IMG/VR virus record: IMGVR_UViG_3300042923_001310
Span: 1-21,263 of that record
Origin: a virus
Strand: one strand, 5' to 3'
DNA length: 21,263 nucleotides
The position numbers and the translations under genes were made by a program. The notes beneath the pieces were generated by a model. That model made no database searches. It was not told the DNA's origin and saw only the letters and a list, made by a program, of their open reading frames with translations. Of this stretch, positions 1,898 through 20,425 are shown in pieces (within the stretch, counting starts at the first letter, position 1; each line of letters begins with the position of its first letter).

Positions 1898-1926
1898 TTG
1901 ATTTTATCTTGGGAATATCATATAAT
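1898..1926 (+). promoter_or_regulatory. Sigma-A-type promoter P1
   Basis: TTGATT at 1898-1903, a 17-bp spacer ending in ATATCA, and TATAAT at 1921-1926, followed by TAATTA. It is one of eight near-identical promoters in the window. Here the downstream palindrome is cut short by the ribosome binding site AAAGGAGG. It drives the dNMP-kinase-like gene and probably the DpdA operon. Confidence 0.9.
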
Positions 1927-1946
1927 TAATTAAAGGAGGAATAAGA

Positions 1947-2477
1947 TTGAAAAATCTGAAGGTTGTGTGTATTAATGGTTTTCCCCTTAGTGGGAAAGAT
2001 ACTTTTGTAATTAGTTGTCAAGCTGTAGCGCATCCGAATACTTATATTAGACATATTTCTACAGTTGACAAAGCAAAGGAAGCATTAAAACTTCTTGGAT
2101 GGACTGGAGTAGAAAAAACAGAAGAAGTTAGACAAGCCTTACACACTTTAAAGATGATATCAAATTCCTTATTTAATGGCTCCAAGGCATATGTCGAAGA
2201 TTCAATCCAAGCTATGCTTCATATAGCATATCGTGGAGTTCTTTTCATCGATTCTAGAGAACCAATTGAACTTGCAGAAATGAAGAAATTGTTCAATGCT
2301 ACGTGTATATTAGTTTCAAGACCTAAGAGTGAACTTACTACTGTTCAAACATTTGCGGATCAGAATGTGCTCAATTTTGACTATGATTATATCGTAGATA
2401 ATTCCGGAACCCTTGCAGAATTAAGAGAAACTTCTAAGAGGTTTTTAAGGCAATTATTTGAGGAGGAATTTCAATGA
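1947..2477 (+). CDS. P-loop kinase, likely deoxynucleoside monophosphate kinase
   Basis: Starts at TTG with a strong AAAGGAGGA site 6-7 bases upstream. The N-terminus carries a P-loop of the form G11-FPLS-G16-K17-D18-T19, the GKDT variant typical of phage dNMP kinases and adenylate-kinase-like proteins. A later FIDSREP segment (about residues 100-106) resembles the Walker B/LID area of that family. A role in phosphorylating dNMPs for DNA synthesis is inferred from the P-loop type, the 176-residue size and the neighbours. No residue visible here identifies the base. It is the first gene after promoter P1 and overlaps the next gene by 4 bases. Confidence 0.7.
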   Translation: MKNLKVVCINGFPLSGKDTFVISCQAVAHPNTYIRHISTVDKAKEALKLLGWTGVEKTEEVRQALHTLKMISNSLFNGSKAYVEDSIQAMLHIAYRGVLFIDSREPIELAEMKKLFNATCILVSRPKSELTTVQTFADQNVLNFDYDYIVDNSGTLAELRETSKRFLRQLFEEEFQ

Positions 2478-2659
2478 GAACGTTGGGGTATTTGGATCAA
2501 ATTCATACGGATGAATTAGTCTCAGAATTGCGTAAGAGACCTGGAGTAACTACTATTACAATTGAAGGCAATGAAGATGCATTTGGAGCAGATTTTGATG
2601 CTTTAAATTACATGGAAGGTCCCATGACAATATTAAAGGTGGTGCCAGAATGCAAGTAG
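2474..2659 (+). CDS. Small acidic protein (61 aa), unknown
   Basis: Starts at ATG overlapping the previous stop (ATGA), with a GAGGAGGAA site. It encodes 61 residues with an alternating hydrophobic strand pattern (TTITI, TILKVV) suggesting a small alpha/beta fold. No catalytic motif is recognised. It lies between the kinase and the DpdA-like gene and overlaps the latter by 10 bases, so it is co-translated with the modification genes. Confidence 0.65.
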   Translation: MRTLGYLDQIHTDELVSELRKRPGVTTITIEGNEDAFGADFDALNYMEGPMTILKVVPECK

Positions 2660-3423
2660 CTTTAATAACTCCTGTTCCTCTACTAGCCGAGTTTGCAAGT
2701 CGTAGTAAATATCATTTGACACTTGCTACCGAAATTCTTGATAGTCTGGACTATCAGAATTATTACAGGTATGCTCGTAAAGTTGGAGATTACGTAATGC
2801 TAGATAATTGTGCATACGAACTTGGTAAATCCGTATCGAGCTTACAATTGCGGGAATGTATTAATTTAATTGATCCTAATGCGATGTTTCTACCAGATAC
2901 TAGGTTCAATACTAAGGCAACATTAGAGCAGGTTAAAAACTATGCTCCTTTCTTTGCGGATGGTGTTTTAAAACTATTTGCCGTACCGCAAGGAAATAGT
3001 TTGCAAGAAGTGCTATTCTGCTACGACGAGTTGAGAAAGGATCCTTTAATAGATGGGTTTGGAATCTATGAGGAAATTGGTGAAGTTACTGGAACTGGGC
3101 GTAGAGCAGACTTCCTACGATTACTAGAAGCAACTGGCAGGGTAGATGAACATCGAACGTATCATTGCCTAGGAATGGAAGAAGATGTTGAACAAATAAA
3201 GGAATTAGCGAAGTTCCCTTGGGTTATGGGAGTAGATAGTGCTAAACCAATTGTCTATGGAATCCATGGCATATCTCTGGCAAAGAAGGGTCCACTAGTA
3301 CCTTATCCTCATAGACCTAAAAACTACTTTGAACATTCTGATGTGCAATTCCGAAGCGTAATTCATCACAATATTTCAATGGTGCAACAGTGGGTACAGA
3401 ACCCACTTGCAAATATATGGTAG
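2650..3423 (+). CDS. dpdA: DpdA-like DNA-guanine transglycosylase (TGT paralogue)
   Basis: Predicted to swap guanine in DNA for a 7-deazaguanine base, by analogy with tRNA-guanine transglycosylase and phage DpdA proteins. The 257-residue protein has the short phage-type length. It shows VMLDNCAYELG around D52, which I take as the active-site aspartate segment. Later come a glycine-rich IYEEIGEVTGTGRRADF region, a GVDSAKPIVYG segment and a closing PHRPKNYFE motif. The beta-strand spacing fits a TIM barrel. Assignment rests on these motifs and on co-occurrence with queE, folE and gat-queC. It starts at ATG with AAAGGTGGTG, overlapping the previous gene. A remote alternative is another TIM-barrel enzyme, but the neighbourhood argues strongly for DpdA. 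Confidence 0.8.
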   Translation: MQVALITPVPLLAEFASRSKYHLTLATEILDSLDYQNYYRYARKVGDYVMLDNCAYELGKSVSSLQLRECINLIDPNAMFLPDTRFNTKATLEQVKNYAPFFADGVLKLFAVPQGNSLQEVLFCYDELRKDPLIDGFGIYEEIGEVTGTGRRADFLRLLEATGRVDEHRTYHCLGMEEDVEQIKELAKFPWVMGVDSAKPIVYGIHGISLAKKGPLVPYPHRPKNYFEHSDVQFRSVIHHNISMVQQWVQNPLANIW

Positions 3424-3434
3424 GAGGAATATAC

Positions 3435-3785
3435 ATGTCTTATCCACAAGTAACAGTATTTATTGATGACTTAGAAGGTACGAATGCTTTCCTGAAAGAA
3501 AAGGAAGCAGACTCTCCAGTAGTCATCAGTGCAAACAAGATAGTTGTTCCAGCTAGAAATGGTGCTTCAATTGCACAACTCGTTGTAGTAGTACAACATC
3601 TAGCGAAGTCAGAAGCTGAAGATCTTGTTGAAGCAATAGAATTTAAGCCAGAGATAAAAGGTGGACTTACACCAAATATTGAATTAAAGATTCAAGCAGC
3701 TTTAGAGGATGCAGCTAAAGCTGTTGCGGCGAGTACTACAGCTAATACCGAAGCAACGAAAGTTGTAGAAAAACCCAAGGCTTAA
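3435..3785 (+). CDS. Hypothetical protein (116 aa) with Ala-rich tail
   Basis: The chosen ATG at 3435 follows a good TAGGAGGA site (3421-3428). An in-frame ATG at 3390 lies inside the DpdA gene without such a site. The first 80 residues look like a compact alpha/beta domain. The last 30 or so are rich in Ala, Thr, Glu and Lys and are probably a flexible tail. No family is recognised. It is the last gene of the DpdA transcription unit, followed by a strong hairpin. Confidence 0.7.
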   Translation: MSYPQVTVFIDDLEGTNAFLKEKEADSPVVISANKIVVPARNGASIAQLVVVVQHLAKSEAEDLVEAIEFKPEIKGGLTPNIELKIQAALEDAAKAVAASTTANTEATKVVEKPKA

Positions 3786-3799
3786 TAATCCAAGAGCAA

Positions 3800-3829
3800 A
3801 TCTGCGCAATATAAATATATTGCGCAGAT
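3800..3829. terminator. Perfect 14-bp inverted repeat before gat-queC (terminator or regulatory hairpin)
   Basis: ATCTGCGCAATATA, two bases AA, then its exact reverse complement. The hairpin ends the upstream unit but is not followed by a clear T-run, so simple intrinsic termination is doubtful. Its centre is the recurrent palindrome found also at 19445-19462, so it may instead be a protein-binding site or a folded leader for gat-queC. Confidence 0.6.
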
Positions 3830-3860
3830 AGCTTTCCAGGTATATTCTGGTAATATAAGG
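3806..3860 (+). promoter_or_regulatory. Recurrent motif B: palindrome plus TATTCTGGTAATATAAGG
   Basis: The palindrome GCAATATAAATATATTGC (3806-3823) is followed about 19 bp later by TATTCTGGTAATATAAGG (3843-3860), identical over 18 bp to 778-795. TTGCGC and TATTCT could serve as -35 and -10 at 17 bp spacing. It lies upstream of gat-queC, where no TTGATT/TATAAT promoter of the common type is seen. Confidence 0.5.
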
Positions 3861-3896
3861 CGAGAAATTTAATATGGAGAGGGGAGAATAATCTAT

Positions 3897-5339
3897 ATGT
3901 GTTCAATCACTGGAGTAGTTTATCCAAAAGCTGGTAATTCAACCATTCATGAAGAAATAGGTCAAAGAGTTATGGCTACAATCTATCGTGCGGAGGATCG
4001 TGGTAGAGATAGTTGGGGTTATGCAATGATATTTCAAAATCCTCAAATACCTCCATCTTTGAAGAGATGGACTAGTGCTCCAAGTCAACTGTCAACTGTA
4101 ATTCCAGAAATGTCTCATCCTGGAGCGTCAGTTCTTATTAATAATAATAGAGCGGAACCAACAACTGAATACGTGAAGACTAAATTTCTAGAGGATGTAC
4201 AACCTTATCGTAGTGGAGGCTGGTACGTAGTACACAACGGTACAATAGCTAATGATAAAGAACTTAAGGAAGGATACGGAATTTCTGTTGATACTTCAAT
4301 TGATAGTGCGGTTATTCCTGCGCTCCTTAATACCGCCTTAAGTGATGATAACTTTACTGCGGAAGATGTGGCTAGAGTATTAACTCAAGAGGTAATAGGC
4401 TCTTACTCTTTAGCGATTATGCACTATAAACATCCTGGCAAAGTAATTCTTGCATGCAACTATAAGCCATTGTATCTAGGCTATCATCCGCAATCAAAAT
4501 ATTGGATGTTTTCAAGTCAAAAAGAATATATTACTGGAAAGTCCATTCAACGAAAACTAGGTTGTGCTCTAACTGTAGAAGCAATACCCCCGTATAGTTG
4601 TGTGATGGTATCCAATGAAATGGCACCTAGAGATCTTGAATTCCTATCTCTATATCCTGCGAAAGAAGGTAAGCCGAAAGCATTAGTAGTTTGTTCTGGG
4701 GGATTGGATTCAACTGTTGTAGCTGCAAAGGCCAAGAAAGATGGATACGATGTGACTTTGCTTCATTTTAAATACAGTTGTCGAGCTGAGGAGAAAGAAG
4801 TTATAGCAATCAAAAAGATTGCAGAATATCTTAGTTGTGAATATATGTTCGTAACGACAGATATATTTAAAGACGTTATTAAAGGATCTCCACTAACTGG
4901 TACTGGAAATGAAGAAATTGCGTATAGTCAAGCGGGAGCAGAGTTCGCACATGAATGGGTTCCAGCAAGAAATCTAATTATGCTATCTCTCGCAACGGGT
5001 ATAGCGGAATCTCATGGATTTGATACTTTGATGCTAGGCAATAACTTAGAAGAGTCTGGAGCATATCCTGATAACGAAATGGAATTCATTAACAAGTTAA
5101 ATGCTGTAATGCCATACTCTGTAGCGGCTAATAAGCGGGTTACTATTCAAATGCCAGTAGGTAACCTAATGAAACACGAAATTGTTAAATTAGGTTTAAA
5201 AGTAGATGCACCCCTACATCTAACTTGGTCTTGTTACGAAGCTGGAAAATTGCATTGTGGCGTATGTGGTCCATGTTACATGCGTAGAACAGCTTTTGCA
5301 ATTAATGATACTCCGGAGGTAATTAATTATGAGCAATAG
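3897..5339 (+). CDS. gat-queC: Gat-QueC: class II glutamine amidotransferase fused to QueC
   Basis: 480-residue fusion. The N-terminus begins Met-Cys-Ser-Ile, so removal of Met exposes C2, the nucleophile of Ntn-type amidotransferases. NNNRAEPT and VHNGTI segments that bind glutamine follow. From about residue 262 it is QueC: the ATP-binding PP-loop S267-GGLD-S272, an ARN segment, and a zinc site C446-x7-C454-x2-C457-x2-C460. QueC makes preQ0 from CDG. In Archaea, Gat-QueC fusions complete archaeosine, and in phage 9g a similar set gives 2'-deoxyarchaeosine. The predicted product here is therefore dG+. The start has a GAGAGGGGAG site. The 3' end overlaps the polymerase gene by 11 bases. Confidence 0.93.
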   Translation: MCSITGVVYPKAGNSTIHEEIGQRVMATIYRAEDRGRDSWGYAMIFQNPQIPPSLKRWTSAPSQLSTVIPEMSHPGASVLINNNRAEPTTEYVKTKFLEDVQPYRSGGWYVVHNGTIANDKELKEGYGISVDTSIDSAVIPALLNTALSDDNFTAEDVARVLTQEVIGSYSLAIMHYKHPGKVILACNYKPLYLGYHPQSKYWMFSSQKEYITGKSIQRKLGCALTVEAIPPYSCVMVSNEMAPRDLEFLSLYPAKEGKPKALVVCSGGLDSTVVAAKAKKDGYDVTLLHFKYSCRAEEKEVIAIKKIAEYLSCEYMFVTTDIFKDVIKGSPLTGTGNEEIAYSQAGAEFAHEWVPARNLIMLSLATGIAESHGFDTLMLGNNLEESGAYPDNEMEFINKLNAVMPYSVAANKRVTIQMPVGNLMKHEIVKLGLKVDAPLHLTWSCYEAGKLHCGVCGPCYMRRTAFAINDTPEVINYEQ

Positions 5340-7971
5340 TTGTAATAGTTGTCAACATAAAGAGAATAAGCGTTGTACTAGTAGAGGAAATCCTGGGGCG
5401 GAGATTGTATTTGTTGGAGATTTTCCTAAAGAAATAGAAATTGCGAACGATCAAATTTTTAACAGTATTGGCGGCCGTTTGCTATTACAGACCCTGAAGG
5501 TTTTGAAGAAGGACCCTCAGGAATGTTTCTATTCTAATTTGTGTATGTGTTTATCCGCTACAACGTCTAAGGCTATTATTGCCCAATGTCGTAAAAGGTT
5601 GTTGGAAGAAATGATGGTAATTCGACCAAAGGTTATTTTCGCATTAGGGACATTAGTTTCTCAAATCTTATTAAATACAACTGCGAAGATAGAAGAGATT
5701 CAAGGAACAGCAAAATGGGTTGAAGAATTTGGATGTTATGTAATGCCAGTAATTGCTCCAGGAATTCTTTACCACGATCCATCAAAATTAGAGAGTTTTC
5801 AATCTGCTATTCGAAAAGGATACGTTGCTGTTGATTGGCCTCATGGTGGTAAACCTCCACATGTAGTTAATGCTATTGTTCCAGAAACTGGTGCAGAAGC
5901 AATGTCATTACTTCGAGATTTAAAAATGTTAAATAATTGGCAGAGCTGTGATATTGAAACTGCGGGATTTAATTTTACTACTATGGATATTCTATCAATA
6001 GGTTTTGCACCTAATGCTAATGATGGAATTGTGTTTGGAAAAGATCTAATTGAACATAAAGAAATACAACTAGCAATCGAAGACAATTTTGGAAATCCTC
6101 TTAACAAGTTTGGATTTCAAAATGGCAAATTCGATGGACAATATATGAAATTTAATACAACTCCAGTATTTAAGAAGCAGAAGAAAGTTGTAATTCGAAA
6201 TGTACGAAATGACTTTGATACAATGCTTGCACATTATTGTATCGATGAACGTCAAGGTACTCATGGATTAAAAGTTTGGGCAAAGGAATATTTCGATGCA
6301 CCTGATTGGGATTCTGGTTTAAAGATATACCTTCCAAATAAAGATACGTCATATGAAATGATTCCTCCAAAGATACTTTATAAGTATCAGGCGTATGACC
6401 TTTGCTATACTTATTTAGGAATAGATCTGTTTACTCAAATGATGATTGAAGAAGGCACTTACGGGCTATTTACTGATATATTGATGCCAGCAGCCAATGC
6501 CCTTGCGGATATTGAAATGCGTGGAGTACGTGTTGATAGAGATATGTTAAATAGGCTATTTGATGAAATGGATCCAAAGTTGAAGGAGGCAAAGAAGAAC
6601 CTTGAAAAAGCCGCATTCGCAGTTGGCTTCACTCCAGAGAGATATCAGCAAGAAACAGGCGCGAAGGAGAAGCCTAAATTCTTCAATCCGAACTCACATC
6701 CTCAGATGTCATACGTCGCGTATAACTTATGCCAAATGCCTTTATTCGGAGGCAAGAAAACATGCAACAAAGATGCAGTGGAAATTTACCAGCATAGGCA
6801 TCCCTTTTGGAAGACCATCGCTGAATATAAACAAATTAATGATCTCTTTGGGATTTACGTCAAAGGAATGTTGGAACGCTTGGACGAAGACGGATTCGTC
6901 CGACCGGATTTCTTCTTACATGGCACAGTTACAGGAAGACTTAGCTGCCATGATCCGAATCTTCAGAACATCCCAAGAAAATCTTTCGTCAAAGATCTCT
7001 TCATTGCTGACGAAGATACTGTCATAGTATCTGCGGATTACAAGACTCTGGAAGTCGTTGTAGCAGCAATACTGTCGGATGATCCTGTAATGAAAGCTCC
7101 ATTCCTTGCTGGTGAGGATTATCATACTACTACTATGATGTCAGTCTTTGGAGATCAAATTGCATTAATGAAACATTGGGTTGAAATGAAAGATTTTGAA
7201 GCATTTGATAATTATTTACATCAGCAGATGATGATGGAGATGCGAAATCCCGGAACAGATTACTTATACACTAAAATAGATAAAGACGATCCTACTACAT
7301 GGATCAAGAAACCCATTGAGGATATTAGATTCGACAAGTTATATGATTTACTTGCAGATTTCTTACGTTTCCTTACGAAATTTATTACATTCGGTATTAT
7401 GTATGGGCGTAAAGCAAAATCTCTTGCCGAAGGAGAATTAAATTGCTCTATCAACAATGCGCAACTATACATCAATAATTTCTTCAAAAGATATCCAGAC
7501 TTTAAAGCTTGGCAAGGAAAAATGATCTCTCAAGCTAAGAAAGAAGGATATGTACAAAATCCCTTTGGATTTAAGAGACGTTGGAAAAATATTGATTCCG
7601 ATGCAATTTACTTATTAGAGAATCAAGCAGTTAATACTCCAATACAAGGTACTGCATCTTACATTTGCCTAAAAGCATTAACCAAAATTCACAATGCTTT
7701 TCTTGAAAACCTCTGGGGGTGGGTGCTCTTTACAGTACATGACAGTATTGTATCAGAAGTCAAGAAAGTACATTTAAAAGATGCATTGCATCTAATACAG
7801 TCTAAAATGGAAGAAAAACCTTTTGAAACTGAAGTTCCATTCGTTGCTGATTTAGAAATAGGTCAAAGATACGGCAAAGTAGAAGGAATTACTTTTGAAG
7901 AAGGTAAGTGGGTTCCGGCTAAACCTGAAAAAGCTTCTCAGTGGTTGAAAGATACTCTAGCTTCCCTGTAA
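5329..7971 (+). CDS. Family A DNA polymerase with N-terminal UDG-like domain
   Basis: Replicative polymerase of 880 residues. Residues 1 to about 160 resemble family 4 uracil-DNA glycosylase: C5-x2-C8, C74 and C87 as likely 4Fe-4S ligands, a VGDFP in place of VGEAP, and an IQG segment. The usual HP motif reads A143-P144, so glycosylase activity may be lost. A 3'-5' exonuclease domain follows (D208-x-E210; NGKFD; YQAYD). The polymerase domain has TGRLSCHDPNLQNIP, motif A SADYKTLE with D570, motif B KFITFGIMYG, and motif C VHD805-S806 where VHDE is more common. No 5' nuclease domain is present. It overlaps gat-queC, so replication and modification genes are coupled. Confidence 0.95.
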   Translation: MSNSCNSCQHKENKRCTSRGNPGAEIVFVGDFPKEIEIANDQIFNSIGGRLLLQTLKVLKKDPQECFYSNLCMCLSATTSKAIIAQCRKRLLEEMMVIRPKVIFALGTLVSQILLNTTAKIEEIQGTAKWVEEFGCYVMPVIAPGILYHDPSKLESFQSAIRKGYVAVDWPHGGKPPHVVNAIVPETGAEAMSLLRDLKMLNNWQSCDIETAGFNFTTMDILSIGFAPNANDGIVFGKDLIEHKEIQLAIEDNFGNPLNKFGFQNGKFDGQYMKFNTTPVFKKQKKVVIRNVRNDFDTMLAHYCIDERQGTHGLKVWAKEYFDAPDWDSGLKIYLPNKDTSYEMIPPKILYKYQAYDLCYTYLGIDLFTQMMIEEGTYGLFTDILMPAANALADIEMRGVRVDRDMLNRLFDEMDPKLKEAKKNLEKAAFAVGFTPERYQQETGAKEKPKFFNPNSHPQMSYVAYNLCQMPLFGGKKTCNKDAVEIYQHRHPFWKTIAEYKQINDLFGIYVKGMLERLDEDGFVRPDFFLHGTVTGRLSCHDPNLQNIPRKSFVKDLFIADEDTVIVSADYKTLEVVVAAILSDDPVMKAPFLAGEDYHTTTMMSVFGDQIALMKHWVEMKDFEAFDNYLHQQMMMEMRNPGTDYLYTKIDKDDPTTWIKKPIEDIRFDKLYDLLADFLRFLTKFITFGIMYGRKAKSLAEGELNCSINNAQLYINNFFKRYPDFKAWQGKMISQAKKEGYVQNPFGFKRRWKNIDSDAIYLLENQAVNTPIQGTASYICLKALTKIHNAFLENLWGWVLFTVHDSIVSEVKKVHLKDALHLIQSKMEEKPFETEVPFVADLEIGQRYGKVEGITFEEGKWVPAKPEKASQWLKDTLASL

Positions 7972-7978
7972 TCTTAAC

Positions 7979-8007
7979 AGAGTTCGCTTGTGCGGACTCT
8001 ATTTTTA
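7979..8007 (+). terminator. Intrinsic terminator after DNA polymerase
   Basis: Stem AGAGTTCGC / GCGGACTCT with a TTGT loop (one G-T pair), followed by ATTTTTA. It directly follows the polymerase stop codon and precedes promoter P2. Confidence 0.85.
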
Positions 8008-8030
8008 TCGCCTTTCGACATGAAAAACTC

Positions 8031-8067
8031 TTGATTTCTCTGAGTAAATATCATATAATTAATTATA
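8031..8067 (+). promoter_or_regulatory. Sigma-A-type promoter P2 with -10 palindrome
   Basis: TTGATT 8031-8036, 17-bp spacer, TATAAT 8054-8059. The -10 is part of the perfect 14-bp palindrome TATAATTAATTATA (8054-8067). The whole block from GTAAATATCA to ATAAG is identical to the one at 16718-16743. Confidence 0.92.
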
Positions 8068-8088
8068 AGATTAGAAGGAGGGGAGATA

Positions 8089-8244
8089 GTGATAAAGATT
8101 TTGTCAGGAAAACATCAAGGTAGGTTCGCAGTATTAGACTTGAAACAAATTCCGCCAGAAGTATTAGTCTATTGCGGAAGTTACATTGATCATATTCCAG
8201 CAAATTCTGTCGAGTACGTAGTAGTAGAAGAAAAGTCAAATTAA
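8089..8244 (+). CDS. Small protein (51 aa), unknown
   Basis: Starts at GTG with a strong AGGAGGGGAG site, right after promoter P2. It encodes 51 residues including LSGKHQGRFAVLDL and a C-terminal VVVEEKS strand, suggesting a small beta-rich domain. No family is recognised. It is the first gene of the RNase H-NrdD-NrdG transcription unit. Confidence 0.65.
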   Translation: MIKILSGKHQGRFAVLDLKQIPPEVLVYCGSYIDHIPANSVEYVVVEEKSN

Positions 8245-8264
8245 AAGAAGGTGGTGAAACTAAG

Positions 8265-8732: not shown

Positions 8733-8753
8733 TCCAGGTAGGAGGGATGTCAC

Positions 8754-9005
8754 GTGGATACTTCTCAACTTTGGGCTAGAACCCAGTGGATTCAAAAGCA
8801 ACGAAAACGTCTTGGGTGGAGTCAAGAAACTTTAGCTAAAAAGCTAGGAGTAATGGTACCAGAGTATGTTGCTTATGAAGAAGGTAAAGTTGAATTTCAT
8901 GAAGATATTGACTTTGGGGAATTGAAATTCTATCTTGACCATCAAGTACGTCATAAGCTTGTCGAAGGCGATGAAAAAGTACACATGGACAGATTCGAGA
9001 AATGA
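8754..9005 (+). CDS. Small HTH (XRE/Cro-type) DNA-binding protein
   Basis: GTG start with a TAGGAGGG site. The 83-residue product has a helix-turn-helix of the Cro/C1 type over roughly residues 12-48 (IQKQRKRLGWSQETLAKKLG, then VPEYVAYEEGK), followed by an acidic helical tail. It is probably a transcription regulator. Its target is unknown, but the palindromes over the phage promoters are an obvious candidate. It lies 10 bases before nrdD. Confidence 0.8.
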   Translation: MDTSQLWARTQWIQKQRKRLGWSQETLAKKLGVMVPEYVAYEEGKVEFHEDIDFGELKFYLDHQVRHKLVEGDEKVHMDRFEK

Positions 9006-11734: not shown

Positions 11735-11771
11735 TTGATTTCTCCTCCAAAATATCATATAATTAATTATA
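11735..11771 (+). promoter_or_regulatory. Sigma-A-type promoter P3 with -10 palindrome
   Basis: TTGATT 11735-11740, 17-bp spacer ending AAAATATCA, TATAAT 11758-11763, with the perfect palindrome TATAATTAATTATA at 11758-11771. It lies 12 bases after the nrdG stop, and no terminator is visible between them. Confidence 0.92.
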
Positions 11772-11799: not shown

Positions 11800-12138
11800 A
11801 TGCAGGTGACTAGATATTTAGAACAATTTAAGCAAGCCCTTGTAGTAGAGAGGTCACGTCAAGAAGAGAAGTATGGTAGAGAGAATCTCATGAACTCTAT
11901 GGACAGATATTGTACTATCTTGGGAGAAGAGTTCGGAGAAGTGTGTAGAGCGGCTTATGAGGCTGATCCAGAGAACTTAGAAGAAGAACTTATACACGTA
12001 GCAGCAGTAGCATTTGCAATGTATCAGCGTCTACAAGCTAGTAAGCTTGCAGAAGGAGACGAAGAAAAGTGGCAAGTCACTATCGAAGTTCAAAGCCCAG
12101 AAGACATCCAAGATATGAAAGTAGAAAAATTGAAGTAG
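11800..12138 (+). CDS. MazG-like nucleotide pyrophosphohydrolase
   Basis: 112-residue all-alpha protein. It contains ERSRQEEKYG, then ILGEEFGEVCRA (metal-binding E-x2-E) and, after about 12 residues, NLEEELIHVAAVAFAM, which matches phage MazG-like proteins. Those proteins hydrolyse NTPs or dNTPs to monophosphates or act on alarmones. The second acidic pair reads EEL-IH rather than the more usual EEL-xD, as in several phage relatives. The start has GAGGAGGGGAGG. First gene of the P3 unit, alongside thyX. Confidence 0.75.
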   Translation: MQVTRYLEQFKQALVVERSRQEEKYGRENLMNSMDRYCTILGEEFGEVCRAAYEADPENLEEELIHVAAVAFAMYQRLQASKLAEGDEEKWQVTIEVQSPEDIQDMKVEKLK

Positions 12139-13414: not shown

Positions 13415-13425
13415 GAGGAGTTAAT

Positions 13426-13632: not shown

Positions 13633-13831
13633 AATTTCTAAATACGAAAGGCCATTAGTTGAACCTGATAACGTTAGAGCAAGAAGGCTAATAATTGATA
13701 TTCATCCAGGGGTAAAGCATCCTACGTATCAAGGTAGAGTAGAAGATATTGTTGTAGATAAATCAATTGCCCTTGTAACAATAAATATGTGGTTGGAAAG
13801 AGACATTCCGATGCAAATTACTTATTCATAA
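13622..13831 (+). CDS. Hypothetical protein (69 aa)
   Basis: Starts at ATG within the end of the previous gene, with AAAGGGG upstream. It has a strand-rich pattern (RRLIIDIHPG; VEDIVVDKSIALVTINMWL) that looks like a small beta domain. No family is recognised. Last gene of the P3 unit, followed immediately by a terminator. Confidence 0.65.
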   Translation: MDIKISKYERPLVEPDNVRARRLIIDIHPGVKHPTYQGRVEDIVVDKSIALVTINMWLERDIPMQITYS

Positions 13832-13832
13832 G

Positions 13833-13864
13833 AATAGTCCTCTTAGGAGGACTATTTTTCTTTT
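13833..13864 (+). terminator. Intrinsic terminator of the thyX operon
   Basis: Perfect 10-bp stem AATAGTCCTC / GAGGACTATT with a TTAG loop, followed by TTTCTTTT. Confidence 0.93.
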
Positions 13865-13875
13865 GGTAAGATCCA

Positions 13876-13904
13876 TTGATTAATTTAAGGAAATATCATA
13901 TAAT
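13876..13904 (+). promoter_or_regulatory. Sigma-A-type promoter P4
   Basis: TTGATT 13876-13881, 17-bp spacer ending AAATATCA, TATAAT 13899-13904. Downstream it reads TAAGCATAT rather than the usual TAATTATAAG, so the palindrome is broken here. Confidence 0.9.
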
Positions 13905-13945
13905 TAAGCATATCTAAAAATTATACCGAGCGAGGAGAGATTGAA

Positions 13946-14611
13946 ATGATTCACAAACCAAAAGCAGGTCAAGAGTTTTTACAGTTAATATTATTTGGAG
14001 CAGGATTCGGAGAAAGGAAAGCTTTCTTATGTAAAGAAATTAAAGTCGTTCAAGAACCCTTTCCAAGCGGAATACTTAGTTTCAGTTCAAAATCTCAAGA
14101 AGTAGTTGAGGCTGTTCTACAAGATGGGCTAGAAGTAACAATACTAATCGGTAGTAGTAGTCCTTGGAAATCTTATACAATCTCAGAAGCAACATCTGAA
14201 GAAGAACAAAAATTAAAGGAGGACTTAAAAATGGAAAAGCAAGTTGTACAAGTGAGGTTACGCGAAAGCATTGGAAGATGGACTTCTAAGCAGTACGATT
14301 ATTTAACCTTAGAACCAGTCGCGTTAGATGACATCGTTGTAGTAGCTACGCAATACGGTCCTCAAGTGGGATTAGTTTCTGGTTTTGAAAAGGCTACCGT
14401 AAAATGTATGAAGTATGTTATTCAAAAAGTAGATTTTACTAAAGTTGATGCTATAATTGCTCGAGAAAAAGAACTAGTTTCATTACGTCAGAAAATTCGG
14501 GATCGTGCAAATGTAGTTAGGAAGAATCAAGAATTAATGACCTTAGCAATGCGTGATTCTAGGTTAATGGAATTAGTTGAAGAATTGCAAAAAGCGGAGG
14601 CGGGTGAGTAA
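13946..14611 (+). CDS. Two-part unknown protein (221 aa) with strong internal start
   Basis: First gene of the P4 unit, ATG with GAGGAGAG upstream. Residues 1 to about 95 form one alpha/beta-looking segment ending in an acidic linker (SEEEQKLKEDLK). Residues 96-221 form another, with a strand-rich start (VVQVRLRE, DDIVVVATQYGPQVGLVSG) and a long basic-acidic helix (VDAIIAREKELVSLRQKI) that may be a coiled coil. An ideal AAAGGAGG site (14215-14222) stands 8 bases before an in-frame ATG at 14231, so a shorter 126-residue product is likely made too. Function unknown. Overlaps the next gene by one base. Confidence 0.75.
   Translation: MIHKPKAGQEFLQLILFGAGFGERKAFLCKEIKVVQEPFPSGILSFSSKSQEVVEAVLQDGLEVTILIGSSSPWKSYTISEATSEEEQKLKEDLKMEKQVVQVRLRESIGRWTSKQYDYLTLEPVALDDIVVVATQYGPQVGLVSGFEKATVKCMKYVIQKVDFTKVDAIIAREKELVSLRQKIRDRANVVRKNQELMTLAMRDSRLMELVEELQKAEAGE
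14215..14233 (+). promoter_or_regulatory. Internal ribosome binding site and in-frame ATG
   Basis: AAAGGAGG at 14215-14222, eight bases, then ATG at 14231, in frame with the gene starting at 13946. The segment quality equals that of the true gene starts in the window. Confidence 0.7.
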
Positions 14612-15765
14612 TGGCTTCAAGGTTCGAATTAAGTCTTAGCGAAAACTATATTCAAAGTTGGGGAATAGTTGAAGCGATTCGAGAAATTTTTCAGAACGCG
14701 TTAGATCAGCAAACCGTTGGTGATGGCAAGAACAATATGTTTATAAATTACGATGCTACCTTTAAGAAATTAGAAATTGGAAACAAAATTTCAGTCCTTG
14801 AAGCTTCTTCTCTTTTACTAGGAGAATCTAGTAAGAGAGGAGATGATACTACTATTGGTCAATTTGGTGAAGGATACAAACTTGCACTTCTAGTACTTTG
14901 CAGATTAGGTAAAGAAATAGCAATTCGTAATTGGGGTAAGAGAGAATCTTGGTTTCCAAAATTGATCACTTCCCGGAGATATGGCGGTCAGAGAATCCTT
15001 GTAATAGACGTAGAACGTAATTGGTTTTGGGAAGAAGTTCCAGAAAACAACCTAGTATTCGAAATTTCTGATATTTCTCCAGAAGAGTATCAAGAAATTC
15101 AAGAATCTAATTTACACCTTCAAGGAAAATATTCCTTCTTAAGTACTTCCTTAGGAACAATCTTGCTTGATGAGCCCCATGCAGGAAACATATATGTTAA
15201 TGGCTTATATGTCTCTCATGTAAATGAAATAAAGTATGGCTATAACATTAAACCAGCGTACATTAAATTAGACCGGGATAGAAAAGCAGTTACTACTTTT
15301 GATCTTACTTGGACTACTTCTAGGATGTGGGGAGAAAGTGGTGATTCTAGGCTGGGAGATCTTGTAAGAGCTGGTTCCCAAGATGTAGCATATTTAAAAC
15401 AGACTTCTTCCTTCAGTGGAAGTAGGAAGTATCGAGAATGTTGTGAAGAAATATATAGTGACTTTAAAGTAGAACATGGTATTAACGCATATCCTGTTAC
15501 AGCTCAGGAGGAACTTACTGAAGCAATTGAAAGGTTTGGAACACTAGTTAAACCTATAATTGTAAAAGAGGCTCACAGAGTTGCAATTCAAGAAAGCGTC
15601 ACCTTCAAGAAGGATGTAGAAGAATTGCCACCTCCGATAGAGAAAGTTACTCCTCAAGAAAGGCTTGAAGAGTTCTATGCTAAAGCATTTCCGTATCTCA
15701 ATGATGAATTGCAAGCGGAACTTCTTGAGATAATAGAAGAGAGTAAGGAGTGGGAAACAGAATGA
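14611..15765 (+). CDS. GHKL (histidine-kinase/Hsp90-like) ATPase domain protein
   Basis: 384-residue protein with an N-terminal GHKL ATP-binding fold. The N-box is EAIREIFQNALD (E25, N29, D32) and the lid glycine box is G83-QF-G86-EG-YKLAL. The usual DxGxG between them is replaced by a weaker EIGNKIS (55-61), although the spacing is kept. Residues about 190-320 continue with a strand-rich region (GNIYVNGLYV), perhaps a transducer-like domain. The last 80 residues are acidic and helical. T4 rIIA is a known phage GHKL protein, but I see no specific match. ATP-driven conformational change is inferred. The role is unknown. Confidence 0.75.
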   Translation: MASRFELSLSENYIQSWGIVEAIREIFQNALDQQTVGDGKNNMFINYDATFKKLEIGNKISVLEASSLLLGESSKRGDDTTIGQFGEGYKLALLVLCRLGKEIAIRNWGKRESWFPKLITSRRYGGQRILVIDVERNWFWEEVPENNLVFEISDISPEEYQEIQESNLHLQGKYSFLSTSLGTILLDEPHAGNIYVNGLYVSHVNEIKYGYNIKPAYIKLDRDRKAVTTFDLTWTTSRMWGESGDSRLGDLVRAGSQDVAYLKQTSSFSGSRKYRECCEEIYSDFKVEHGINAYPVTAQEELTEAIERFGTLVKPIIVKEAHRVAIQESVTFKKDVEELPPPIEKVTPQERLEEFYAKAFPYLNDELQAELLEIIEESKEWETE

Positions 15766-15992
15766 CGGAGCAGCCAGAAGAGAGAACATTCTATAAATTT
15801 ACTTTAGAAGACTCTTGGTTAGAAACTCCTTTTGAAGATTTAAAGAAAGGAGATATATTTACCCAATCGGATGACCCTAGATCAACCTTCATAGCAGAAG
15901 AAGATGCAGAACCAAGATCGTGGTTAGGAGTGTACCCAGCTAGAGTTAAATCACATTTAGTAGTATTTACTCTTGGAGAGGGATTGCAATAA
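15762..15992 (+). CDS. Small protein (76 aa), unknown
   Basis: Starts with an ATG overlapping the previous stop (ATGA). A GTG at 15750 in the same frame is too close to the AAGGAG site. The 76 residues are acidic at the start, then contain LKKGDIFTQSDDP and a beta-rich end (SHLVVFTLGEG). This resembles the short phage proteins with a GD-x-F turn that occur in replication regions. No function assigned. Confidence 0.65.
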   Translation: MTEQPEERTFYKFTLEDSWLETPFEDLKKGDIFTQSDDPRSTFIAEEDAEPRSWLGVYPARVKSHLVVFTLGEGLQ

Positions 15993-16030
15993 TTATTCTA
16001 AAAAGTACGTTCAATAAGGAGGTAGTCACA

Positions 16031-16198
16031 ATGCCCAAGAAAGTTAAAGCGAAGGTACGTAGTGTCGTAGAAGAAATAGCCATCATTGTATTAGAAGATG
16101 ATGGCTATCACGTTAGAGAATTCATTGAACAACACTCGGAAGATGATCATGAAGTGGATGAAGTTATTGACATAATTGATGTGATAGATGAATGGTAA
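16031..16198 (+). CDS. Very acidic small protein (55 aa)
   Basis: ATG with AAGGAGGTAG upstream. A basic first 10 residues (PKKVKAKVR) are followed by a highly acidic remainder (EDDGYH, SEDDHEVDEVIDIIDVIDEW). The charge pattern suggests a DNA-mimic or a protein-binding peptide, but this is speculation. It overlaps the next gene by 7 bases. Confidence 0.65.
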   Translation: MPKKVKAKVRSVVEEIAIIVLEDDGYHVREFIEQHSEDDHEVDEVIDIIDVIDEW

Positions 16199-16461
16199 TC
16201 ACAGTCACATTTACAAAATCAGAACCAACTCTTGCTATGTGGTCTTTCGCTCAAACGATTGCAAAAGCATTAGATCTTAAGCTACCAAAATACGAATACG
16301 AAGCTGTAAGTGAATTTCTTAACTTTTTCTCCCCAGAATTTTATCGACATAAGAAAATATGTAACTATGACTTTTGGAACTACACTTTTTGGATGAATAG
16401 TCATTTAGACGAAGAGGACGAATGGTTTGAGTATGAACATCAAGGAGGTGGATGGGATTAA
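16192..16461 (+). CDS. Hypothetical aromatic-rich protein (89 aa)
   Basis: ATG inside the previous gene's end with no strong binding site, so it is probably coupled. The protein is rich in Trp, Phe and Tyr in its second half (NYDFWNYTFWMN), with an acidic tail. No domain recognised. Its last base is shared with the next start codon. Confidence 0.6.
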   Translation: MVITVTFTKSEPTLAMWSFAQTIAKALDLKLPKYEYEAVSEFLNFFSPEFYRHKKICNYDFWNYTFWMNSHLDEEDEWFEYEHQGGGWD

Positions 16462-16658
16462 TGAATGAACAGATTTTAAGAGATCATGCTTTAGTTGTTT
16501 CACAATCCGCATGTGCTCTTATATCCGCAATAGGAATGTTTGTAGCAAACAGTCAACATCCGAATGACCAACCTTATTCAATAGATGACATTAAAGCAGT
16601 AATTGATGAGCATGGAATAGGATATAACTCCGTTATGACACAGTTGTACAATCGATAA
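16461..16658 (+). CDS. Hypothetical protein (65 aa)
   Basis: I chose the ATG at 16461, which is 10 bases after AAGGAGGTG. The in-frame ATG at 16452 is too close to that site. A central hydrophobic helix (SACALISAIGMFVA) is flanked by polar ends, so membrane association is possible but not certain. Last gene of the P4 unit. Confidence 0.6.
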   Translation: MNEQILRDHALVVSQSACALISAIGMFVANSQHPNDQPYSIDDIKAVIDEHGIGYNSVMTQLYNR

Positions 16659-16679
16659 TTTCATATTGTAACTAAAATA

Positions 16680-16715
16680 AATCAAGGGAATTTATTCATT
16701 TCCCTTGATTTTTCT
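16680..16715 (+). terminator. Intrinsic terminator overlapping promoter P5
   Basis: Perfect 11-bp stem AATCAAGGGAA / TTCCCTTGATT with a 9-base loop, followed by TTTTTC. The end of the right arm is also the -35 box (TTGATT) of the next promoter. Confidence 0.93.
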
Positions 16716-16741
16716 ATGTAAATATCATATAATTAATTATA
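16705..16741 (+). promoter_or_regulatory. Sigma-A-type promoter P5 with -10 palindrome
   Basis: TTGATT 16705-16710 (inside the terminator arm), 17-bp spacer, TATAAT 16728-16733, and the perfect palindrome TATAATTAATTATA 16728-16741. It drives the ligase and sigma genes. Confidence 0.92.
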
Positions 16742-16763
16742 AGTAAAAATGGGAGATGATTGA

Positions 16764-17660
16764 ATGATAGGTCTTATGAATGCAAATCCTATTGGAAAGA
16801 AAGCAGAAGCAATCTTAGCTGATCCTAATTACATTGCAGAAATTAAATGGGATGGTTGTAGGTACGAGTACAATGAATCAGATTTAATAAGTCGTCTGGG
16901 AATAAGTAAAGGGGCAAATGCACCACACCTAATTCAAATCCTTTCAAAGTACAATGTTGTATTAGATGGAGAAGTTTACTATCCAGGAAAGACATCCAAC
17001 GCTACTACAAGTGTGATGGGATCCCTTCCTGGAGTAGCGACAGCAAAACAATTAGAGTTTGGTAACATTCGCTATGTACTTTTTGACATTTTATCCCAAA
17101 ATGGAACACTATTAATTCAACAACCATGGCACGTTCGTCGTAAAGCTCTTGAGAAATTTTATGAATCAATGTCTGAAGAAGACAAAGAGTTCATCGATCT
17201 ATCAGAAGTATTTCCAGATAAGTTTGGTCTTAAAACTCTAGAAGATGTCATGGAATACATCAAGAAACATAAGATTGAAGGATTGATGTTTAAAAACATC
17301 AAAGCTATATACCACCCAGATAAGAGTCCAGAAAATGTATGGTTCAAAGCTAAAAAAGACATATCCTTTGAAGCGATTATTTCAGGATTTACTCCAGGAA
17401 AGGGTCAGTATGAAGGGCTTATCGGAAGTATAGTATTTAGTCTTTACAATTCAAATGGTGAGCTAGTTGAATGTGGTAAATGTTCGGGATTCTCTAATAT
17501 GATTCGTAAAGAAATTTCCGCAAACAGAATTGAGTACTTAGGTAAAATAATTCAGGTTCATGCAATGGAAAAGACTGAAGATGGCAGATTTAGACATCCT
17601 ACCTTTTACAGCTTTAGAGATGATAAAGATCCAAAAAGGTGTACAATGGATCAAGTATAG
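16764..17660 (+). CDS. ATP-dependent DNA ligase
   Basis: Seals nicks in phage DNA using ATP. 298 residues, in the range of small phage ligases. Visible motifs are motif I K28-W-D30-G31 (AEIKWDGCRYEY, K28 being the adenylated lysine), VVLDGEVYYPG, motif IV IEGLMFKN and motif V VWFKAKKD. An OB-fold-like C-terminal part follows, starting ISGFTPGKGQYEG. It starts at ATG with GGGAGATGA upstream. First gene after promoter P5. Confidence 0.93.
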   Translation: MIGLMNANPIGKKAEAILADPNYIAEIKWDGCRYEYNESDLISRLGISKGANAPHLIQILSKYNVVLDGEVYYPGKTSNATTSVMGSLPGVATAKQLEFGNIRYVLFDILSQNGTLLIQQPWHVRRKALEKFYESMSEEDKEFIDLSEVFPDKFGLKTLEDVMEYIKKHKIEGLMFKNIKAIYHPDKSPENVWFKAKKDISFEAIISGFTPGKGQYEGLIGSIVFSLYNSNGELVECGKCSGFSNMIRKEISANRIEYLGKIIQVHAMEKTEDGRFRHPTFYSFRDDKDPKRCTMDQV

Positions 17661-17677
17661 TACTGGAGGATAGGTAT

Positions 17678-18241
17678 ATGACTATCAAGGCGGAAGAACA
17701 TATTAGTTTTGCGTATTACATGTTAAAGAAAATGAATATCTTTCCTCTGACGCATTTTAATTATTCAGATCTAGAGTCTGCTGCTCTCTATGGTTTAGTC
17801 AAAGCCGCTAATTCATTTAAAGGAGATATCGGAACAACATGGACCACGTACGCAGCAAGAGTTATTAAGAACGAAGTTTTTCAGGCAATTCGAAGAGAAA
17901 GAAAACATCATGAATGCGTATCTATAGAAACTCCAATAAGTGAAAATTATCATGATGGTGGTATAGCGACTCTAGCAGATTGCATTCCTGAGAAACGAGA
18001 TGAAATTGAAATGTTTCTTTGGGATTCAGCATACTCTTGCTTTATAGTAGATATGCGAAAGGTAGGTGAAAGATTTACCAAGAGAAAGCAACAAGTATTT
18101 AACACATTTATTTCTAACCCTTCAATCACTCAAAGAGAACTTGCAACTCAACTAGGACTTACTCAAAGCTATGTTTGTAGAGTACTAGAGCAGATTAGAA
18201 AGGTCTTAAGACCTATTAGAAGAAGAGCTTTTGACATTTAA
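17678..18241 (+). CDS. Phage RNA polymerase sigma factor (sigma-70 family)
   Basis: The ATG at 17678 follows CTGGAGGATAG. An in-frame ATG at 17639 lies inside the ligase gene. The 187-residue protein has a region 2 segment (NYSDLESAALYGLVKAANSF, then TTWTTYAARVIKNEVFQAIRRERK) with a core-binding helix and -10 recognition helix. It also has a C-terminal region 4 HTH (TQRELATQLGLTQSYVCRVLEQI). There is no region 1, and the middle is shortened, as in small alternative sigmas. It likely redirects host RNA polymerase to a class of phage promoters. The recurrent motif at 745, 3806, 19445 and 20122 is a candidate target, but nothing proves it. Confidence 0.9.
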   Translation: MTIKAEEHISFAYYMLKKMNIFPLTHFNYSDLESAALYGLVKAANSFKGDIGTTWTTYAARVIKNEVFQAIRRERKHHECVSIETPISENYHDGGIATLADCIPEKRDEIEMFLWDSAYSCFIVDMRKVGERFTKRKQQVFNTFISNPSITQRELATQLGLTQSYVCRVLEQIRKVLRPIRRRAFDI

Positions 18242-18259
18242 TTTAAAGGAGAGAGAAGA

Positions 18260-18511
18260 ATGAATTTCGTATTAAATTCAATTCAAACCTTAAGTGAAAT
18301 TATTTTAGCACTAATCAATACTGCAATTTGCGCTTCATTAATAGTATTCATGCTAGCGGTATTAGGTTCATTTATTGGAAAAGTTGTTGATGCAACTGTA
18401 CAGAAACTACTAGATTTTCAATACAAAAGGGCCATAAATAAAGTTCGAATACAACAAGCCGAAATTACAATGTTAGGTACAGTAACGTCCAAAGACGCAA
18501 AGATAGAATAG
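18260..18511 (+). CDS. Single-pass membrane protein (83 aa)
   Basis: ATG after AAAGGAGAG. Residues about 12-40 form a long hydrophobic segment (EIILALINTAICASLIVFML and on), followed by a basic-to-mixed helical cytoplasmic-type tail (FQYKRAINKVRIQQ). No family recognised. It lies between the sigma factor and a secreted protein. Confidence 0.7.
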   Translation: MNFVLNSIQTLSEIILALINTAICASLIVFMLAVLGSFIGKVVDATVQKLLDFQYKRAINKVRIQQAEITMLGTVTSKDAKIE

Positions 18512-18569
18512 GATAAGTCTGTAGGAAGGAGGATGTAGTTACCAATCTAAATTAAAGGAGTGTATAAAA

Positions 18570-19061
18570 ATGTATAAACGTATTCTACTCACCTTCCTAT
18601 GCATGCTTTTTCTAATCTCCACAGTACACGCATCAAACAATTCTCCAAATGGATTTCACGAAATTCCTTGGGGAATCTCAATCGAAGCTGTAGCGGATCA
18701 GTTTGAAGAAATTGAAGAACCTTGCGATGATTCAAACATTAAGTCGTATCGAAAAAAGAACGATACTCTTAAGATAGGTAGAGCAACAGCAGATTCTATT
18801 ACGTATCATTTTTGGAAAGGAAAGTTCTTTGGTATCTATGCTACAAATGCGGGATACCTAGGATACTTCTTAGCAGAAATAAGTGCTCAATTAGGTACTC
18901 CAACTTATAGCTACGAAAATAGAAAATACTTGTATGTATGGAATCAAGACCCTAAAGTACATGCAGGATTTTATGGTAGAAACTTTGGTGACTTTACTAT
19001 GTACAATGTAGATATCAAAAGAGAGATGGAAATTGAACAACCCCTGACAGTATATAACTAA
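18570..19061 (+). CDS. Secreted protein with signal peptide (163 aa), unknown
   Basis: Starts at ATG after AAAGGAG. It has a classical signal peptide: MYKR, a hydrophobic core (ILLTFLCMLFLIS) and an AxA-type site at VHA before SNN. There is no lipobox cysteine at the cleavage point. The mature part contains a GFHEIPWGISIEAVADQF segment like periplasmic or cell-surface proteins that begin with 'IPWG', then a strand-rich domain with many aromatic residues. A role at the infected cell surface is inferred from export only. Last gene before a strong terminator. Confidence 0.75.
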   Translation: MYKRILLTFLCMLFLISTVHASNNSPNGFHEIPWGISIEAVADQFEEIEEPCDDSNIKSYRKKNDTLKIGRATADSITYHFWKGKFFGIYATNAGYLGYFLAEISAQLGTPTYSYENRKYLYVWNQDPKVHAGFYGRNFGDFTMYNVDIKREMEIEQPLTVYN

Positions 19062-19078
19062 TTGAGTTTGATACTCTT

Positions 19079-19112
19079 AAAAGACTATAGAACTAAGTTC
19101 TATAGTCTTTTA
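19079..19112. terminator. Strong bidirectional terminator
   Basis: Perfect 16-bp inverted repeat AAAAGACTATAGAACT / AGTTCTATAGTCTTTT around a single A, giving a long stem with a T-run on either strand. Confidence 0.9.
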
Positions 19113-19510
19113 ACATGTATTCAAAACACAGTAGAAAACAACCCATTACTGCTACAGACGCACCTAGCCAGAGGCTGTAGAAGCAATACCCGGGAGGGAA
19201 TTCTCAAAAATTTTTATATCATATCGGGTTAATTTAGAAAAATATCCTTCGGCGTACCACATTGCGTTCGAAGTTCTCGAATCGAAATTCCTTCAAAAGG
19301 TGTTCCTCCGAAGACACTAATTTTTCAAAGTGATGTAGTCTGGAGGTCGAAATTTTAAATTTTTCCAGGCAATAGACACGTATATCAAAATAAATTGAAA
19401 TTTCTCCCCTTATATTTCAGATATAAGCCGTTTTTAAAGTCGCAGCAATATATTTATATTGCCCCGAAAAGTTCTACCGTGAAAATAAGTATGTAAATTT
19501 GTGTTAAACC
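19113..19510. other. Non-coding stretch (about 400 bp) with several potential hairpins
   Basis: No ORF with start and ribosome binding site is present on either strand. Inverted repeats include CAGTA / TACTG (19129-19151), CTACAG / CTGTAG (19152-19180), and a nested pair CTTCGG (19247-19252) with CCGAAG (19308-19313) enclosing TTCGA / TCGAA (19267-19281). AT-rich patches are also present (19204-19222, 19352-19368). It could encode a structured RNA or hold a replication or regulatory site. I cannot distinguish these. Confidence 0.5.
19445..19504 (+). repeat. Recurrent motif C: palindrome plus CCGAAAAGTTCT ... AAATTTGTGT
   Basis: Perfect 18-bp palindrome-type motif GCAATATATTTATATTGC (19445-19462), then CCCCGAAAAGTTCT and, ending at 19504, AAATTTGTGT. 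It shares order and sequence blocks with 20122-20190 and lies just before promoter P6. The palindrome is the reverse complement of the one at 3806-3823. Confidence 0.6.
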
Positions 19511-19512
19511 TA

Positions 19513-19549
19513 TTGATTTATTGACTGATTCATCATATAATTAATTATA
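19513..19549 (+). promoter_or_regulatory. Sigma-A-type promoter P6 with -10 palindrome
   Basis: TTGATT 19513-19518, 17-bp spacer ending ATCA, TATAAT 19536-19541, palindrome TATAATTAATTATA 19536-19549. Upstream, GTTAAACCTA, the -35 and TATTGA match the minus-strand promoter near 20420 exactly over 22 bp. Confidence 0.92.
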
Positions 19550-19570
19550 AGTAAATAAGGAGGAATTTAT

Positions 19571-20074
19571 ATGTGGCCTAAAAGACCTACGGATTCACCA
19601 AAATGGCCTACCTTTAGAGGGGCAATGTTAGATGATAAAACCTTCGAGAATATTGCGAGTCTGTTGGAAGGCATCTTGGAGCAAGAAGGAAAGTTTCCTA
19701 GAACTCAAAGGAAGCTAATCTACGTTGCGAAAGGAAAGCAATATGTAAGAGAATCTTCAAATGGTGGATTCGTTAATGGTGGCGGAACTCGTAATTGCTA
19801 TAATTGTTTGTCGTTCGAGCTAGAGTTCAAAATGCCTAAGTGTAAAGATGGTAAGATCACTCAAGGAAACATTTACCTCATTGTATGGGTAGGTGGATAT
19901 GGTAAAGGTTCGATTATGCATTGTGGGTGGCAGTTTCCACATTCGGAGAATTATGATCCCTATCTCTTAGAACAAGCAGCATTGCAAACGTATTATGCAA
20001 TAGCAAGTCTCATATATGATGGAAGACCTTTAGATAAAGAAGTTGAAAAGTTCATCAATTTAGTAATGAATTAA
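19571..20074 (+). CDS. Hypothetical protein (167 aa)
   Basis: ATG after AAGGAGGAA, expressed from its own promoter P6 and ended by its own terminator. The N-terminus is Pro/Trp-rich (WPKRPTDSPKWPTF). The middle has a glycine/cysteine segment (NGGGTRNCYNCLSFELEF) and a hydrophobic strand (GNIYLIVWVGGYGKG). The C-terminus is helical. The spaced Cys and His residues (NCYNC, MHCGW) could bind metal. No family recognised. It is flanked on both sides by related repeats (19445 and 20122). Confidence 0.75.
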   Translation: MWPKRPTDSPKWPTFRGAMLDDKTFENIASLLEGILEQEGKFPRTQRKLIYVAKGKQYVRESSNGGFVNGGGTRNCYNCLSFELEFKMPKCKDGKITQGNIYLIVWVGGYGKGSIMHCGWQFPHSENYDPYLLEQAALQTYYAIASLIYDGRPLDKEVEKFINLVMN

Positions 20075-20080
20075 TCATTC

Positions 20081-20106
20081 AGGAGTGGAAACACTCCTTT
20101 ATTTCT
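20081..20106 (+). terminator. Intrinsic terminator
   Basis: Stem AGGAGTG / CACTCCT with a GAAA tetraloop, followed by TTATTT, seven bases after the stop codon. Confidence 0.88.
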
Positions 20107-20121
20107 CGTCAAATTTCTCTC

Positions 20122-20190
20122 GCAATGTATTTATGTTGACTCGAAATGTTCCGCATTGTAAATCCGAAATATGCCTAGGGAAATTTGTGT
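20122..20190 (+). repeat. Recurrent motif D, diverged copy of motif C
   Basis: GCAATGTATTTATGTTGA (20122-20139), CTCGAAATGTTCC, and AAATTTGTGT (20181-20190), in the same order as in 19445-19504. TTGACT and TAAATC, 17 bp apart, could be weak -35 and -10 boxes. Confidence 0.5.
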
Positions 20191-20226
20191 AACTAAAAGG
20201 AGTAACCGAAGTTACTCCATTTAGTT
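20191..20226. terminator. Convergent terminator hairpin
   Basis: AACTAAA-A-GGAGTAAC, CGAA loop, GTTACTCC-A-TTTAGTT. On the minus strand the loop is TTCG (an exceptionally stable tetraloop) followed by TTTTAGTT. It therefore ends the minus-strand gene just upstream, and possibly plus-strand transcripts as well. Confidence 0.85.
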
Positions 20227-20357
20227 TACTTTACGATTGTACTGAAGAAACCACTTTGATAAACCTTCCAAATTAAGTAAATTGTTCCGCATAAACACAC
20301 CATTACAGTGATAGCGTTTACACATCCACTAGCACCTTTCATGTCTTCCTCTCCCAT
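20226..20357 (-). CDS. Small membrane protein (43 aa)
   Basis: ATG (minus strand) with a very strong GAAAGGAGGTGAG site. After a short acidic start it has one hydrophobic segment (VNAITVMVCLCGTIYLIW) and a short basic end. It has a dedicated promoter of the common type upstream and a hairpin at its 3' end. Function unknown. Confidence 0.7.
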   Translation of the reverse strand: MGEEDMKGASGCVNAITVMVCLCGTIYLIWKVYQSGFFSTIVK

Positions 20358-20396
20358 CTTTCTCACCTCCTTTCACGAATTTATTACCTATGTATT

Positions 20397-20425
20397 ATTA
20401 TATGATATTTACCTCAATAAATCAA
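20397..20425 (-). promoter_or_regulatory. Sigma-A-type promoter P7 (minus strand)
   Basis: Read on the minus strand: TTGATT (20425-20420), 17-bp spacer ending AAATATCA, TATAAT (20402-20397). It has the same spacer length and upstream ATATCA as the plus-strand promoters. Downstream it reads AATACATA rather than the palindrome. Confidence 0.9.

Follow-up and report, generated by a model that had tools for sequence, protein, structure and literature searches.

Which sigma factor reads the promoters of a phage, and which of their bases matter to it? The question is raised by a 21,263-base virus record (analyzed as a whole and called the window here), along which one promoter motif recurs and which carries a sigma factor gene of its own.

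Seven promoters of one form in the window

A pattern scan of both strands for the exact sequence TTGATT-N17-TATAAT returned seven sites in the window, on the + strand at 1898, 8031, 11735, 13876, 16705 and 19513 and on the - strand at 20425. All seven have exact hexamers and a spacer of exactly 17 bp, and all seven had been listed in a first-pass annotation of this DNA. That annotation counted eight promoters; the window holds no eighth exact site, the next best candidates having one or two mismatches and lying within genes or overlapping a true site. The sites and their surroundings are as follows.

1898..1932, + strand: promoter 1, TTGATT-N15-CATATAAT-TAATTAAA; its target is the gene at 1947-2477 (start codon TTG at 1947; weak match to deoxynucleoside monophosphate kinase).
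8031..8067, + strand: promoter 2, perfect palindrome at 8054-8067; 3′ of the polymerase gene and a terminator-like hairpin (7979-8000), 5′ of the gene at 8089, which is followed by the RNase H, HTH and nrdD genes.
11735..11771, + strand: promoter 3, perfect palindrome at 11758-11771; upstream of the gene at 11800-12138 and the thymidylate synthase block.
13876..13912, + strand: promoter 4, palindrome broken (TAAGCATA); 3′ of a terminator-like hairpin (13830-13859), 5′ of the gene at 13946.
16705..16741, + strand: promoter 5, perfect palindrome at 16728-16741; upstream of the ligase and sigma genes.
19513..19549, + strand: promoter 6, perfect palindrome at 19536-19549; upstream of the gene at 19571-20074.
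20391..20425, - strand: promoter 7, without the palindrome (AATACATA); upstream of a small - strand gene starting near 20366/20357.

At each of the seven sites a start codon lies 15-36 nt downstream of the expected start point, with a Shine-Dalgarno sequence in between. Two sites lie behind terminator-like hairpins, and the -35 of promoter 5 falls within a 12-bp hairpin, in its 3′ arm, so that several operons of the window are separated by terminator-promoter pairs. The motif precedes every recognizable operon of the fragment.

Chance does not account for this arrangement. In 300 dinucleotide-preserving shuffles of the window, TTGATT-N17-TATAAT occurred 0.017 times on average and once at most, and TTGATT-N15-CATATAAT, also present seven times in the window, did not occur. 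The box CATATAAT is found seven times in all in the window (1.7 expected), every time at one of these promoters. Allowing two mismatches removed the enrichment (14 observed versus 8.9), indicating that the signal resides in the exact form. Beyond the element, the flanks of the window sites are only 31-32% identical to one another (27% expected from composition), which rules out a recent duplication of promoter cassettes; rather than being recently copied blocks of DNA, the sites are held in position by selection. The motif is a real, strongly non-random and lineage-conserved promoter class.

A cytosine at -14 conserved across lineages

Comparison with other viral contigs revealed that the conserved element is TTGATTT-N14-C(A/G)TATAAT and not the palindrome. 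The closest relative with much sequence, G001 (32,299 bases, 49% GC; polymerase 54% identical to that of the window), was scanned with only TTG(A/T), the 17-bp spacing and TATAAT fixed. Of the 11 sites that it yielded, 8 start with TTGATT. All 11 carry C at -14 followed by a purine at -13; the palindrome is seen at none of them. In a third lineage, L226 (43% GC; polymerase 48% identical), TTGATT-N15-CATATAAT-TAATCATA lies directly 3′ of the polymerase gene, and a promoter after this gene is common to the window, G001 and L226. The structural-gene contig L009 (38% GC), retrieved by a search in which -14 was unconstrained, has two sites carrying the exact palindrome of the window.

Counted over scans in which -14 was left free (the window, the two relatives and one contig linked to them only by the motif), C occupied this position in 20/20 sites on four contigs of 37-49% GC, compared with 3/23 sites of other phages with a -35 of the TTGA type at the same distance (Fisher p = 2e-9). 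Four more sites were found in L060 and L033 (terminase genes, 47% GC) and were left out of this count because the search pattern already contained the C. The extended -10 element of SigA is TGnTATAAT, so that G rather than C at -14 benefits SigA; the TG at -15/-14 is lacking here, all 20 sites having C at -14. C-R before TATAAT is thus the mark specific to this lineage. The first-pass annotation had argued that a plain SigA promoter does not require this much conservation, a view that is supported here; the ATATCA that it reported before the -10 box is present at six of the seven window sites, the exception being 19513 (TTCATCA).

Two features of the polymerase region were noted in the relatives. 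At 12600-12680 of L016 (G001), a 10-bp inverted repeat (CTTCCTGGGA/TCCCAGGAAG) holds the -35 of the post-polymerase promoter in its loop, and its hairpin overlaps the promoter. In L226 the polymerase gene is split by an insert (2801-3376) with an HNH-like reading frame (2801-3355), which suggests a homing element.

The phage sigma factor and host SigA as candidate readers

The window contains one gene of particular relevance to the reading of these promoters.

17639..18241, + strand: sigma factor gene of the SigE/SigK type, start GTG at 17639 or ATG at 17678; downstream of promoter 5, after the ligase gene.

Matches in Pfam, NCBIfam and PHROGs place a sigma-70-family protein in both the window and G001. 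The window protein matched Pfam Sigma70_r2 (5e-6) and the NCBIfam models of SigK (1.6e-19), SigE (7.8e-18) and RpoD (0.012), and that of G001 matched both SigE and SigK at about 2e-18. As both fall far short of the equivalog cut-offs (68 versus 299 bits for SigK, 65 versus 339 bits for SigE), the two proteins, which are 26% identical to each other, are best described as distant SigE/SigK relatives and not as members of these families. The closest PDB chains by profile were an 82-residue sigma chain (8b3z) and sigma-K, and structure prediction gave a model of low confidence (mean pLDDT 55). In G001 (L016 coordinates), a motif promoter (15396) immediately precedes the sigma gene (15463). Sigma gene and motif thus occur together in two lineages, the only ones with sufficient sequence to show both, the remaining motif contigs being short fragments; no further relatives of the sigma factor were found in viral contigs beyond G001. 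A MazE/AbrB-type DNA-binding protein is encoded just before the G001 sigma gene (L016 14783-15049), and no counterpart was noticed in the window.

The -10 region of the promoters points to the same sigma family. In Clostridioides difficile, SigE and SigK have very similar -10 boxes and differ in the -35 (ATA versus AC), and the -10 box of the sigK P2 promoter is exactly CATATAAT (PMC3789822). With C placed two bases ahead of TATAAT, the -10 of the phage promoters becomes this mother-cell SigE/SigK type, and the pattern CATA followed by nnnT is present as CATATAAT at 7/7 window sites, with C and A before TATAAT as in Bacillus and Clostridioides SigE/SigK promoters (PMC3789822). In contrast to those promoters, the -35 is neither ATA nor AC but TTGATT at 7/7 sites. 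Measured against SigA (a TTGACA-like -35 and TATAAT at 16-18 bp), the promoters agree at 10/12 consensus positions.

We weighed two readers. With a probability of about 0.5, the promoters form a regulon under the sporulation-type sigma factor encoded by the phage, which may share them with host SigA and probably reprograms the host RNA polymerase; the recurrence of the motif before operons (7 sites in the window and 11 in G001, against about 0 in shuffles) is consistent with such a regulon, and the sigma factor, which the first-pass annotation had proposed as a candidate, remains a good one by its type and its place downstream of a motif promoter. The class reads (A/C)TTGATTT-N14-C(A/G)TATAAT, with an AT-rich discriminator and a predicted start near an A, and the invariant C(-14) and purine(-13) extend the -10 to CATATAAT, the kind of box read by SigE/SigK. 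Host core polymerase carrying the phage sigma factor would then transcribe the replication, nucleotide and DNA-modification genes. As TTGATT-N17-TATAAT also makes a reasonable promoter for SigA, the host factor could conceivably start transcription before the phage factor takes over, and with the sigma operon under its own promoter class, positive feedback would be expected. No second promoter class was recognized in the window or the G001 fragment, suggesting either that SigA starts at the same promoters or that early promoters lie outside the fragments. Counting against the phage regulon are the SigA-like -35, the 26% identity of the two sigma factors, the dispensability of a sporulation-like sigma factor in phage SP10 (see below) and other phages with SigE/SigK-like sigma factors (CB473P1, MT835471 and others), which lack the motif and in which no enrichment of CATATAAT was found.

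The main rival, which we regard as possible but rather unlikely, is that these are ordinary host SigA promoters made uniform in this phage lineage, with C(-14) historical or strength-tuning and the phage sigma factor serving other genes or disturbing host sporulation. Like SigA extended -10 promoters, they combine a TTGA-type -35, a 17-bp spacer and TATAAT; the 10/12 consensus match fits this account, the SigA-type promoters of phage CB473P1, in which TGA precedes TATAAT, are similarly uniform, and unrelated viral contigs contain TTGATT-N17-TATAATTAATTATA. However, SigA prefers G at -14, whereas the phage sites have C there without exception, and it is difficult to account for an invariant C in 20/20 sites on four contigs unless something reads that base.

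A broader version of the phage regulon can be put forward only tentatively: a sporulation-type sigma factor may have been adopted as a general transcription factor for replication and packaging, hybrid promoters (SigA-like -35, SigE/SigK-like -10) permitting a start by host SigA and a takeover by the phage factor without any change of promoter. If true, such a factor would be the main promoter reader of the phage and not a tool for disturbing host sporulation, a single base at -14 (C versus G) would separate phage promoters from host ones, and the motif would provide a promoter signature for finding members of this uncultured phage group. The question of what such factors do for phages, left by PMC9429907, would also become testable.

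Related systems are known from other phages. Phages phiEco32 and 7-11 encode sigma factors with phage-specific promoters that were recognized from the genome, some of them upstream of the sigma gene (PMC4331800). The window and G001 share with them a phage-encoded sigma factor, a phage promoter set and a motif promoter upstream of the sigma gene, a layout that, by analogy with phage 7-11 (PMC4331800), is that of a self-amplifying sigma regulon. Whereas the phiEco32 and 7-11 promoters are short, non-housekeeping boxes of the TGATGT type, those of the window combine a near match to the SigA consensus with an extension of the SigE/SigK type, which is also the type of the sigma factor itself. Sporulation-type sigma factors are also found in SPO1 (gp2.21) and other phages; SigK-like promoters of the SPO1 genome have been proposed as gp2.21 targets, as cited in PMC9429907, and the sporulation-like sigma factor of Bacillus subtilis phage SP10 is dispensable (PMC9429907). 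While SPO1 gp2.21 and other such phage factors are dispensable and their link to promoters is unconfirmed, the motif described here stands before every recognizable operon and is conserved in the lineage.

Palindrome, timing and genomic context

The first-pass annotation had drawn attention to a palindrome at the -10 box, which to it suggested an operator or a phage DNA-binding protein. The palindrome TATAATTAATTATA is indeed perfect at four of the seven promoters (8054, 11758, 16728 and 19536), giving eight strand matches against 0 in 300 shuffles; it has one mismatch at 1921 and two at 13899, and is missing from the - strand site. It is absent from G001, L226, L060 and L033, all of which share the rest of the motif, and TTGATT-N17-TATAATTAATTATA is present in 14 other viral contigs, 10 of which have G at -14, the usual extended -10. 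Absent from relatives and present in unrelated phages, the palindrome is not the conserved part, and is most simply explained as TATAAT meeting an AT-rich discriminator, which makes it look incidental. The idea that it acts as a second -10 in the opposite direction was also discarded, since inspection by eye, of 8054-8067 only, turned up nothing resembling a TTGATT -35 with a 17-bp spacing on the opposite strand.

The candidate regulator of that annotation is also encoded in the window.

8754..9005, + strand: small HTH_3 protein (Pfam HTH_3, 1.5e-6).

It is improbable that the region from -18 to +4 is an operator through which this or another phage DNA-binding protein controls SigA-driven promoters. 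Four perfect 14-bp palindromes in the window, two more in L009 and an HTH_3 protein encoded nearby, with a syntenic homologue in G001 (34% identity), would suit such a site, but G001 keeps this homologue without the palindrome and nothing ties the protein to the promoters. Moreover, a symmetric site is found at only 4/7 window promoters and at none in G001, L226, L060 or L033, the conserved ATATCA-TATAAT part is asymmetric, and unrelated phages carry the identical palindrome; comparison of lineages thus rejects the palindrome as the main feature.

An early or middle timing, proposed along with the operator, is weakly contradicted. Motif promoters precede replication genes in the window and G001 and terminase genes in L060, L033 and L009; if these three contigs, whose kinship is indicated by the motif alone, come from one lineage with the window, the promoter has a general role and not an early or middle one.

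It is very unlikely that the promoters were built for the host's SigE or SigK, with phage genes switched on in the mother cell during host sporulation: their -10 CATATAAT is a mapped C. difficile SigK promoter box and the class III ribonucleotide reductase, nearest to clostridial phages among records with a named host, suggests an anaerobic Firmicute host, but the -35 fits neither factor and core replication genes would wait until sporulation.

The window encodes QueE, FolE, a Gat-QueC fusion, DNA polymerase A, RNase H, a class III ribonucleotide reductase with its activase, thymidylate synthase, an ATP-dependent DNA ligase and the sigma factor. The best matches of the ribonucleotide reductase with a named host were clostridial phages, and an anaerobic Firmicute is the likely host; we name none, as neither the full palindrome form of the motif (exact match) nor the window polymerase found a match among 84,980 bacterial and archaeal genomes. 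No near DNA match to the window was found among 50,697 phage records, and no RNA families were detected in it. The motif is not a general property of phages with this Gat-QueC gene, 79 other such loci having shown no enrichment.

At 4-5339, QueE, FolE and Gat-QueC adjoin a conserved 257-aa protein (2650-3423) of an unknown PHROG family. This region probably specifies a 7-deazaguanine DNA-modification pathway, in which the 257-aa protein would, at a guess, be a DpdA-like transferase; that TTGATT and C(-14) are suited to DNA modified in this way is speculation. A 384-aa protein encoded at 14611-15765 belongs to PHROG 6077 (unknown function, 1.2e-82), and its N-terminus resembles, by eye, a GHKL-type ATPase.
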